A stretch of 64,000 bases of DNA. Origin: Halobacterium hubeiense. Lineage in GTDB: Archaea > Halobacteriota > Halobacteria > Halobacteriales > Halobacteriaceae. The notes under the pieces are model-generated. The model did not search any database, had not been told where the DNA came from, and worked only from the letters and a program-made list of their open reading frames with translations. Within the stretch, counting starts at the first letter, position 1, and every line of letters starts with the position of its first letter. Positions 42,802 to 45,832 of this stretch are shown here, one piece after another. The stretch spans positions 2,046,001-2,110,000 of the forward strand of contig NZ_LN831302.1 in the NCBI RefSeq assembly GCF_001488575.1, read 5' to 3'. Both the position numbers and the translations under genes were made by a program.

Positions 42802-44592
42802 TCAGACGAGTTCCTCGGCTTGTTCGAGGCGCTCGTCGTAGACGTCGAGCGCGCGTTCGATGGGCTCGCTCGTGGACATGTCCACGCCCGCGGCCCGCAG
42901 CAGTTCCAGCGGGTACTCGCTGGACCCGCGCTTGAGGAAGTCGAGGTAGCGGTCGGCGGCGGGCTGGCCCTCGTCGAGGATGTCCTGCACGAGTGCGACG
43001 GCCGCCGAGATGCCCGTCGAGTACTGGAAGACGTAGAAGTTGTAGTAGAAGTGCGGGATGCGCATCCACTCGCGGCGGATGTGGTCGTCGACGACGGCGT
43101 TCGCGTAGTAGGCCTCCTTGCGCTCGCCGTACACCTCGTCCACGCGGTCGGGCGTCAGCGCCTCGCCCTCTTCGGCCAGCGAGTGCAGGCGGTGTTCGAC
43201 GTCCGCGAACAGCGTCTGCCGGTACAGCGTCGAGCGGAACCGTTCGAGGTACTCGTTGAGGATGTGCTTGCGGAAGTGGTCGTCCTCGACCGTATCGAGG
43301 AGGTGGTTGACGAGCAGCGCCTCGTTGACCGTGGAGGCGACCTCCGCCACGAAGATTTCGTAGTCCGAGTAGACGTACGGCTGCTGCTCGCTGGTGTACT
43401 GGCTGTGGAGGCTGTGCCCGAGTTCGTGCGCGAGCGTGAACATCGAGGAGATGTCGTCCTGGTAGTTCATCAGGATGAACGGCTGGGTGTCGTAGGTCCC
43501 CCCGGAGTACGCGCCCGAGCGCTTCCCGCGGTTCTCGTAGACGTCAACCCAGCGGGACTCCAGCCCTTCGGCGACGCGGTTCTGGTAGTCCTCGCCGAGC
43601 GGCGCGACCGCCTCCACGACGTGCTCTTTGGCCTCCTCGTAGGTGACTTCGGGGCTCTCTGAGTCCACGATGGGCATGTAGAGGTCCCACATCTGGACCT
43701 CGTCGACGTCGAGCGCCTCGCGCTTGAGGTCGACGTGGCGGTGGAGCTTGTCGAGGTTGTCGTCGACAGTCTCCACGAGGTTGTCGTACACCTCCGTGGG
43801 GATGTTCGCGCCGTCGAGCGCGGCCTCGCGGGCGGTGTCGTAGTTCCGGGCTTCCGCGAGCTTGACGTCCTTCTTCACCTGATTCTTCATCGTCGCGCCG
43901 ATGGTGTTGCGGACGTCGCCGATGGTCTCGAAGAACGACTCGTGGACGGTCTGACGGAACTCCCGGTCGGGCTCCTTGAGGAGCTTCGTGAAGTTCGCCT
44001 GCGAGATTTCGACGGCCTCGCCGTCGGGGTCCTCGACGGTCGGGAACTCCAGGTCCGCGTCCGTCAGCATGCTGTACGCGTCACTGGGCGCGCCGAGCAC
44101 GTCGCCGAGGTCGCTCAGCAGCTCCTCGACCTCCGCCGAGCGCGTGTGCGGCTTCATGCGGAGGACGTCGTCGAAGTAGTGCTCGTAGGTCGCCAGTTCG
44201 GGCTCCTCCTCGACGAGCTCCTGGAGTTCCTCGCGCGTGCAGTCCTGGAGTTCCGGACCGAAGAAGGAGGTCGCGCTGGAGACGTCCGCCATCAGGCTGG
44301 ACGCCCGCGCCCGGAGCGCCTGATACTGCTGGTCGCGGGTGTCCTCGTCGGAGCGCATCCGCGCGTACGCCGACACCTGCTCGGCCTCGCGGTGGATGTC
44401 GTCGCGGAGCTGGAGCGCTTCCAGCAAGGTCTCGCCGGACTCGGTGAGCCGCCCCTCGTAGGCTTCGAGTTCGTCCAGTCGGGACGCGACGTCCTCGTAG
44501 GCCGCTTCCCAGTCGTCGTCGCTGGCGTAGATGCTCTCCAGGTCCCACGTGTGTCGTTCGTCGAGCTCGCTTCGTTCGGGAACGCTACTCAT
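42802..44592 (-). CDS. pepF: Oligoendopeptidase F (M3B metallopeptidase)
   Basis: PepF hydrolyses short peptides (about 7-17 residues) in the cytoplasm, downstream of the proteasome. The 596-residue protein has the M3 zinc motif HELGH in FTLAHELGHSLHS (about residues 385-397) and the usual third ligand region in EIFVAEVASTVNEALL (Glu, about 411-426). The N-terminal helical part (about 1-200) forms the channel lid. pan is the next gene downstream, so protease and peptidase genes are neighbours. Confidence 0.94.
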   Translation of the reverse strand: MSSVPERSELDERHTWDLESIYASDDDWEAAYEDVASRLDELEAYEGRLTESGETLLEALQLRDDIHREAEQVSAYARMRSDEDTRDQQYQALRARASSLMADVSSATSFFGPELQDCTREELQELVEEEPELATYEHYFDDVLRMKPHTRSAEVEELLSDLGDVLGAPSDAYSMLTDADLEFPTVEDPDGEAVEISQANFTKLLKEPDREFRQTVHESFFETIGDVRNTIGATMKNQVKKDVKLAEARNYDTAREAALDGANIPTEVYDNLVETVDDNLDKLHRHVDLKREALDVDEVQMWDLYMPIVDSESPEVTYEEAKEHVVEAVAPLGEDYQNRVAEGLESRWVDVYENRGKRSGAYSGGTYDTQPFILMNYQDDISSMFTLAHELGHSLHSQYTSEQQPYVYSDYEIFVAEVASTVNEALLVNHLLDTVEDDHFRKHILNEYLERFRSTLYRQTLFADVEHRLHSLAEEGEALTPDRVDEVYGERKEAYYANAVVDDHIRREWMRIPHFYYNFYVFQYSTGISAAVALVQDILDEGQPAADRYLDFLKRGSSEYPLELLRAAGVDMSTSEPIERALDVYDERLEQAEELV

Positions 44593-44670: not shown

Positions 44671-45576
44671 TCACAGGGAGTCGGCGACGTGACCGGCCGC
44701 CCGCGCTCGCGCACGGCGCTGTTCGCGGAGGTCCGCGAACATCGCCCGGGTCGCGGCCAGCGCGTTCGCCTCGACGGCGAAGTCGAGGTCGTAGTCGACG
44801 TCGTGGAGCACGAGCGAGCCGGGCGGCGCGGGCGTCACGCCCTCCGGCCCCTCGATCGGCTCGGCGGCGAGCAGGCGGTCGATGCGGTCGAAGTTGTCGC
44901 CGCCCGCGACCGCCTGCACGAGCGCGACGACGCGACGCACGAGTTCGCGGCAGAACCCGCTCGCGCGCAGCGTCACCACCAGGAAGTCGCCGTCGCGCTC
45001 GATGCCGCCGGAGAGTTCGCGGACGGTGTTGGCGTCGTCGGGCGTGAGGTTGTGGAAGTCGTGCTCGCCGAGCAGCCGGTCGAGCGCCTCGGCCGCTCGG
45101 TCGTCCGCGTCTCCAGCGTGGCTCGCGGGTCGTTCCTCCCCGTCTTCTCGCGGGCTTCGCCCGCTCGAATGGTCCGAGGGACCCCGTCCCTCGCTACTCG
45201 CTCGTTCCGCGCCCTCGCTACGCTCGGGCGCGAGCCAGAAGTACCGGTACTCCCGCCAGTTCGCGTCGTGGGTCGCGTGGAACTCCGCGGGCGCGTCGGC
45301 GGTCGCCCACGCGCGCAGCGGCCCGGAGAGTTCGCTGTTCAGCCCGGACGGCGTCAGCCACGCGGGCGCGTCGAAGGCGATGGTCTGCGCGCGCGCCGAC
45401 ACGCCGGCGTCGGTCCGGCCGGCAGCCGCGTACCCCGGCGGTTTCTCCCCCTCAAAGGCGTCGAGCCGCCGGAGCGCGCCGAACAGTTCGTCCTCGACGG
45501 TCGTGACGTCGGGCTGGCGCTGGAAGCCGTAGTAGGGGCGGCCGTCGTAGGCGACGCGGAACGCGCGACGGGGCAT
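44671..45576 (-). CDS. truA: tRNA pseudouridine synthase TruA, with an insertion
   Basis: TruA converts uridines 38-40 in the anticodon stem to pseudouridine. The 301-residue protein has the catalytic Asp in AAGRTDAGVSARAQ (about 50-63) and WREYRYFWLAPE (about 105-116), and FCRELVRRVVALVQAV near the end. Between residues about 114 and 156 it holds a low-complexity, charged insert (ERSEGAERASSEGRG... HAGDADD) that is absent from the usual compact enzyme; the DNA of the insert (about 45110-45236) is built from palindromes. The reading frame is open, so the protein is probably made with the insert as a surface loop. Confidence 0.92.
   Translation of the reverse strand: MPRRAFRVAYDGRPYYGFQRQPDVTTVEDELFGALRRLDAFEGEKPPGYAAAGRTDAGVSARAQTIAFDAPAWLTPSGLNSELSGPLRAWATADAPAEFHATHDANWREYRYFWLAPERSEGAERASSEGRGPSDHSSGRSPREDGEERPASHAGDADDRAAEALDRLLGEHDFHNLTPDDANTVRELSGGIERDGDFLVVTLRASGFCRELVRRVVALVQAVAGGDNFDRIDRLLAAEPIEGPEGVTPAPPGSLVLHDVDYDLDFAVEANALAATRAMFADLREQRRARARAAGHVADSL
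45110..45236. repeat. Palindrome-rich insertion inside truA
   Basis: It contains three perfect hairpins: GCGGGC-TTC-GCCCGC (45150-45164), CGAGGGAC-CCC-GTCCCTCG (45175-45193) and CGCGCCC with an 11-base loop and GGGCGCG (45208-45232). The first two have the 3-nt loops of the intergenic family. Length about 126-127 bases, in frame. Confidence 0.6.
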
Positions 45577-45641
45577 AGCAGTACCTCGTAGCCACCCGAC
45601 CGAGTCAGTATCGAAATTGGACGTATCGTGCAGTGGAGCAT

Positions 45642-45666
45642 CCACGAGCGCCGTCGGCGCTCGTGG
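45642..45666. repeat. Perfect hairpin, 11-bp stem, 3-nt loop
   Basis: CCACGAGCGCC-GTC-GGCGCTCGTGG; every base of the stem pairs. Confidence 0.75.
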
Positions 45667-45670
45667 TTCA

Positions 45671-45688
45671 CAGCGCGCTTGCGCGCTG
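45671..45688. repeat. Perfect hairpin, 8-bp arms
   Basis: CAGCGCGC-TT-GCGCGCTG directly follows the previous hairpin by 4 bases. Confidence 0.6.
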
Positions 45689-45733
45689 GCGCCGAACCCA
45701 CCGGAGTTCCCGGGAGCGAAGCGAGCGGGAGCA

Positions 45734-45754
45734 CGGCAGAGCTGTGCTCTGCCG
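45734..45754. repeat. Perfect hairpin, 9-bp stem, 3-nt loop
   Basis: CGGCAGAGC-TGT-GCTCTGCCG. Confidence 0.75.
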
Positions 45755-45782
45755 GAGGTGGGTAACGGCGCTTTTTCCCCAA

Positions 45783-45827
45783 GTTTTTGCGAACGAGGAC
45801 GGCGGAGCCGTCCGAGTGTAGCAAAAA
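45783..45827. terminator. Nested hairpin with T/A flanks
   Basis: The outer arms TTTTTGC (45783-45789) and GCAAAAA (45821-45827) enclose GGACGGC-GGA-GCCGTCC (45797-45813), a 7-bp stem with a 3-base loop. The T-runs either way would act as bidirectional transcription stop signals. It lies just past the hisS stop codon. Confidence 0.55.
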
Positions 45828-45832
45828 GTGGG

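Follow-up and report, generated by a model that had tools for sequence, protein, structure and literature searches.

The truA gene of Halobacterium hubeiense, which encodes tRNA pseudouridine synthase A, contains an in-frame insert that is very probably composed of two haloarchaeal mobile elements, palindromic and non-autonomous, similar in their working to the Rickettsia palindromic elements (RPEs) and kept in genes as a hydrophilic loop. Two observations carry this reading. First, the elements recur at unrelated loci, and comparison of orthologs shows them present in one and missing from another, with clean junctions. Second, the copies in genes hold one sense frame and have lengths mostly divisible by three. 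Mobility of the core is inferred from comparison, no transposition having been observed, and translation of the insert is inferred from the reading frame only, without the peptide having been demonstrated. Positions refer to the window, the whole 64,000-nucleotide stretch of DNA that was analysed.

The insert in truA

The insert is a composite structure in which a two-hairpin core (H2 and H3) lies inside a short hairpin element (H1 and H4), at an AG^C junction. Its features, all on the minus strand, are as follows.

44671..45576, minus strand: truA, 301 aa; relatives without the insert have 264 aa
45116..45229, minus strand: in-frame insert in truA, 114 bp or 38 codons, by alignment with the empty congeners G004 and G011
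45208..45232, minus strand: hairpin H1 (CGCGCCC / GGGCGCG), 11-nt loop, left part of the short element
45143..45196, minus strand: 54-bp core, TAGCGAGGGACGGGGTCCCTCGGACCATTCGAGCGGGCGAAGCCCGCGAGAAGA, nested in the short element
45175..45193, minus strand: hairpin H2, CGAGGGAC-ggg-GTCCCTCG, perfect, 8-bp stem, 3-nt loop
45150..45164, minus strand: hairpin H3, GCGGGC-gaa-GCCCGC, perfect, 6-bp stem, 3-nt loop
45126..45142, minus strand: hairpin H4 (CGGG / CCCG), weaker, right part of the short element

A preliminary description had placed a palindrome block at 45110-45236. The block is real and in frame, but these limits overshoot it by about 6 bp at either end, since the insert proper occupies 45116-45229 against the empty congeners, whose flanks read CTCGC on one side and TGGAGA on the other. 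The three hairpins it reported, two of them with 3-nt loops, are seen in truA together with a weak fourth, and the third has an 11-nt loop. The outermost 3 bp of H1 are shared with the host flank CGC. Alignment with TruA structures from the PDB places the insert in a length-variable stretch flanked by two conserved blocks; a PDB search with the insert peptide gave no match to it. The spacer between truA and the next gene (window 45640-45830) is closely packed with other hairpins, such as CCACGAGCGCCG/CGGCGCTCGTGG, with no match to the insert core.

Recurrence within the genus

The stem content of the truA insert was equalled in 29 of 5000 draws when synonymous codons were resampled with the peptide held constant. 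The 54-nt core folds as RNA with z = -4.0 and the composite with z = -3.2, none of 200 shuffles being as stable; a 151-nt fold that includes the flanks is weak taken alone (z = -1.6). Short hairpins are frequent in GC-rich coding DNA, where 23 of 2130 windows reached the same stem content, a point in favour of chance palindromes or of an old conserved low-complexity loop of haloarchaeal TruA. What decides that the palindromes are real and not due to chance is that the element recurs: the same genome has four further copies at 81-88% DNA identity, in trm5, at the N-terminus of cobJ/cbiH and in two intergenic sites, loci unrelated to truA.

Of the 40 matches listed for 13 Halobacterium genomes, about 28 are good, and more than 20 open reading frames yield the same peptide when translated in one sense frame. 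The hosts identified by NCBIfam and Pfam comprise Trm5/Taw2, CofC, CobJ, TrpE, a TroA-like binding protein, PurU, GNATs, endonuclease III, nudix, an alpha/beta hydrolase, GatE, RNase P p29, a beta-lactamase-like protein, MoeA, glutaredoxin-thioredoxin reductase and asparaginase, several of them with the family match on both sides of the insert. The hairpins had been taken for an intergenic family able to enter a gene. Two intergenic copies in this genome do match, but most detected copies lie in genes and in frame, and two nested elements are involved. The excess within genes carries a caveat: intergenic copies may decay and escape detection, and the query was built from intragenic copies.

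Empty sites

The truA site is empty in nine aligned Halobacterium congeners, and a tenth, G008, looks empty. G010 and G005 have inserts of other length and content at the same point, and the TruA flanks are conserved across the genus. The insert is therefore not an old conserved loop. This was the comparison of TruA from close relatives that the preliminary description had proposed, with conservation of the loop across haloarchaea as its refutation; the flanks proved conserved, the insert varied in presence, length and content, and the refutation did not materialise. A tree of insert-free TruA sequences needs three changes, forced by well-supported branches, and fits either gain on several occasions or a gain combined with precise loss or with transfer. 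Recurrence, the empty congeners, stem resampling and the TruA tree together leave an old TruA loop or chance palindromes with practically no remaining plausibility.

Empty orthologs were found within the genus for eleven further hosts, such as gatE, where 105 bp stand between GACGAC and GGTGGT. No target-site duplication is evident at the empty/filled ortholog pairs. In G010, the short element carries other palindromic cargo at nudix (L312) and at truA (L036) where other species have the core, and these sites look as if they accept several modules.

Two elements, one nested in the other

Nested core: The 54-bp core encodes the peptide SSEGRSPSDRSSGRSPRED, whereas the short element, which is commoner than the core, encodes AERSEATERASGEAAS. 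The nesting can be read from pairs of genomes. A GNAT gene has the short element only in G002 (VDEQRESTEQASGAAAS) and the same element with the core within it in G008; a nudix gene presents the same contrast between G002 and G005. The core is exactly 54 bp in 80 of 104 unique copies and divisible by three in 92 of 104, and its junctions are mostly AG^CG, or GA^C. It also occurs directly in genes, leaving exact 18-residue gaps in the orthologs of the present genome for four hosts (L110 pepF, L184, L188 and L198). One of these empty orthologs is truA's neighbour in the window:

42802..44592, minus strand: pepF-like oligopeptidase gene, empty-site ortholog (TV followed by EDPDGE) of the core-bearing L110 pepF, with an 18-residue gap

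A core variant with longer hairpin loops (L175, L217 and L224) encodes RVARD..PSD.ASGP.AREQ and keeps the downstream frame despite the change in loop length.

Short element: Alone, the short element has more than 130 matches listed, in 12 of 13 Halobacterium genomes. Where the flanks code in a common frame, it is read in one frame in 12 of 14 copies and antisense in 1 of 14. It constitutes a second in-frame palindromic family (L322-L351, Halobacterium genomes), often in tandem in intergenic DNA. The possibility that the H1 stem was copied from the target by fold-back synthesis was rejected, as the empty sites of nth and gatE place H1 wholly inside the insert.

Base pairing of the stems

Among 44 distinct cores, 97.6% of the stem cells pair. 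Both sides of a pair have changed in 56 cells, against 20.8 after shuffling and 1-4 in slid registers; these cells count sequences and not events. Since only three pairs of H2 and one pair of H3 change on both sides, the support from covariation rests on H2, for which about a dozen fully paired stem sequences exist, four of them common. The paired changes in H2 indicate that the hairpin itself matters to the element.

Frame, strand and the encoded peptide

Frames were called with a codon model that was trained on verified hosts and scored the flanks only. In 91 of 170 unique copies the two flanks clearly code in the same frame, and among these 82 use the peptide frame, 8 the +1 frame and 1 the +2 frame, with no antisense copy. 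The nine exceptions include three short weak matches and several loop-length variants or mis-called frames; the copy in a CofC relative (L162) is a real second-frame insertion. From the GAC sites in the same genes, about 38% antisense copies would be expected for random insertion, and the sense-strand bias has P ~1e-11 over 53 host groups. An apparent antisense insertion at L068 was discarded because the antisense gene appears to begin past the element, which leaves the copy upstream of it. In a DJ-1/PfpI-like gene (L083, G009:C163:19401-19443), the core flanks are in different frames, and the gene is possibly broken by the insertion.

Stop codons alone cannot account for this bias, because the core is open in five of its six frames. 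The frame in use has the lowest net charge and hydropathy of the six, and the other frames are basic. The bias is most simply explained if selection removes basic or hydrophobic peptides from acidic proteins; this is an inference, and oriented insertion is not excluded.

The same bias could be read in another way, with the element spreading as an adaptive peptide module, not as selfish DNA, because a disordered hydrophilic linker helps proteins in high salt. The strong preference for one frame, whose peptide is the most hydrophilic of the six, would suit such a module, as would the glutaredoxin-thioredoxin reductase that keeps the insert at the same place in several genomes. Filtering predicts the frame preference equally, however, and the patchy presence among close relatives, the unrelated host genes and the paired stem changes, which serve base pairing and not the peptide, make an adaptive module rather improbable. 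We give still less credence to action or removal at the RNA level, by which the mRNA hairpin would be spliced, bypassed or regulatory and the peptide absent from the protein. The RNA fold is stable, the paired changes are on the transcribed sense strand and the gene copies are all sense; yet splicing or bypass needs neither a length divisible by three nor a single frame, both of which are observed, and intergenic copies exist.

Insertion and its possible agent

For a pair of mobile palindromic elements filtered within genes, the following course can be proposed. The short element would have come to sit in the length-variable loop of TruA, and the core would have entered its middle at AG^C. Insertion presumably occurs at many sites, and selection would then purge copies that shift the frame, halt translation or add a basic or hydrophobic peptide to the acidic haloarchaeal proteins. 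The survivors would be those read in the frame of a hydrophilic, near-neutral peptide, forming a tolerated, length-neutral loop. Judging from covariation only, the hairpin may most simply be the single-strand substrate of an unidentified enzyme supplied in trans.

One candidate for that enzyme would be an IS200/IS605-like Y1 (HUH, RAYT-like) transposase acting on a GTAG-type repetitive extragenic palindrome (REP). GTAG adjoins the H2 stem in most nested copies, the absence of a visible target duplication is compatible with such a mechanism, and the Haloquadratum PATEs are tied to IS605-type ends (PMC3119063). The base before TAG, however, is that of the target, G in nested copies and often A in direct insertions; GTAG is thus not intrinsic to the core, and the intrinsic tag that defines membership of the GTAG REPs is lacking. 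Y1_Tnp is present in 7 of 13 genomes. It was not found in G005, G009 and G010, which bear copies, whereas no good copy is present in G011 despite its five Y1 matches. No enzyme that could mobilise the elements was found, and copy number across the 13 genomes shows no correlation with Y1 transposases. We therefore consider this origin unlikely, without dismissing it.

Relation to known palindromic elements

In-frame palindromic inserts are known from the RPEs of Rickettsia (PMC10969869, PMC3733652), and REPs occur inside bacterial open reading frames, with truB and truA of Stenotrophomonas among the targets (PMC3733652). The analogy with RPEs drawn in the preliminary description is apt, as the same peptide appears in the same frame in many unrelated host genes. 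The attributes that make RPEs a kind, a dispersed in-frame palindrome and a conserved peptide (SSEGRSPSDRSSGRSPRED and close variants here), are present across 76 host groups, and both systems have empty orthologs and no known dedicated transposase. There are also differences. The haloarchaeal core is ~54 bp and nested in a second element, whereas RPEs are ~150 bp; it is archaeal, GC-rich and spread across many genera of a class; and it comes from an unrelated lineage and, so far as can be judged with RPE sequences outside the comparison, has an unrelated sequence.

The GTAG- and CGTC-tagged REPs resemble the present elements as hairpin repeats within coding genes (PMC3733652), but they are mostly intergenic and have an intrinsic tag, whereas the haloarchaeal copies were detected mostly in genes, their GTAG is partly target and RAYT-like enzymes do not track them. 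The elements do not qualify as miniature inverted-repeat elements (MITEs): there is no target duplication, and inspection of the core reveals no terminal inverted repeat, transposon ends having been outside the comparison. The SMR-A elements of Haloquadratum are ~110 bp with inverted terminal repeats and nest in the palindromes of PATEs (PMC3119063); like the present elements, they are haloarchaeal, transposase-free, without target duplication and an instance of one palindromic element within another. The core differs from SMR-A in size and ends, and the consulted passages do not describe in-frame gene insertion for SMR-A, whose sequences were outside the comparison. The coding palindromes of Nematomorpha mitochondria are likewise inverted repeats in protein genes, but they are perfect, long (up to 284 bp) and mitochondrial (PMC6649704). 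The literature searched, from which subscription journals were mostly absent, yielded no account of palindromic elements inserted in frame in archaeal genes; such inserts are apparently unreported in archaea, their novelty being unproven.

Distribution across haloarchaea

Of 391 Halobacteria genomes, 149 have a match (E <= 1e-6), and 52 of 86 genera are represented among them. Since only two candidates were scored per genome, the class-wide counts give a minimum number of copies. About 115 in-frame copies fall into 76 host-gene groups when copies with one clear flank are included, and 53 groups have both flanks clear; trm5, cofC, trpE, nth, gatE, RNase P p29, pepF and gyrB are among them. An exact pattern search of GTDB species genomes returned 36 stretches, all under haloarchaeal titles except one Euryarchaeota MAG. 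On plasmid records (Halorussus, Natronococcus, Natrinema and others), the element is found in genes annotated as CobN, MerA and mismatch repair protein, and the three plasmid-borne genes that were read run through it on the same strand. Phage records gave no match, and viral contigs none to the exact pattern.

It is conceivable, and we offer it tentatively as somewhat less than an even prospect, that these are class-wide nested palindromic elements adapted to genes, in which the 54-bp length of the core, its entry at AG^C/GA^C after the second codon base and its sense-frame charge jointly leave the host almost unaffected, and haloarchaeal proteins repeatedly acquire new loops from mobile DNA. 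The element occurs in over half of the sampled haloarchaeal genera and in core enzymes, with clean before/after pairs within one genus; it makes the mobile-DNA origin of new protein loops directly testable, and it is amenable to study in genetically tractable haloarchaea. Annotators should be aware that ERSEATERAS, SSGRSPRED and similar stretches of haloarchaeal proteins represent inserted DNA elements and not domains.

Some proteins have been struck repeatedly, since GatE has the core in five genomes (L081, L154, L114, L208 and L235) and not always at the same position. The core is also present in mercury(II) reductase genes from several haloarchaeal genera (L103, L104 and L123; plasmid hits H6-H9); in the three loci read, it comes after NAFG, in the same place each time.
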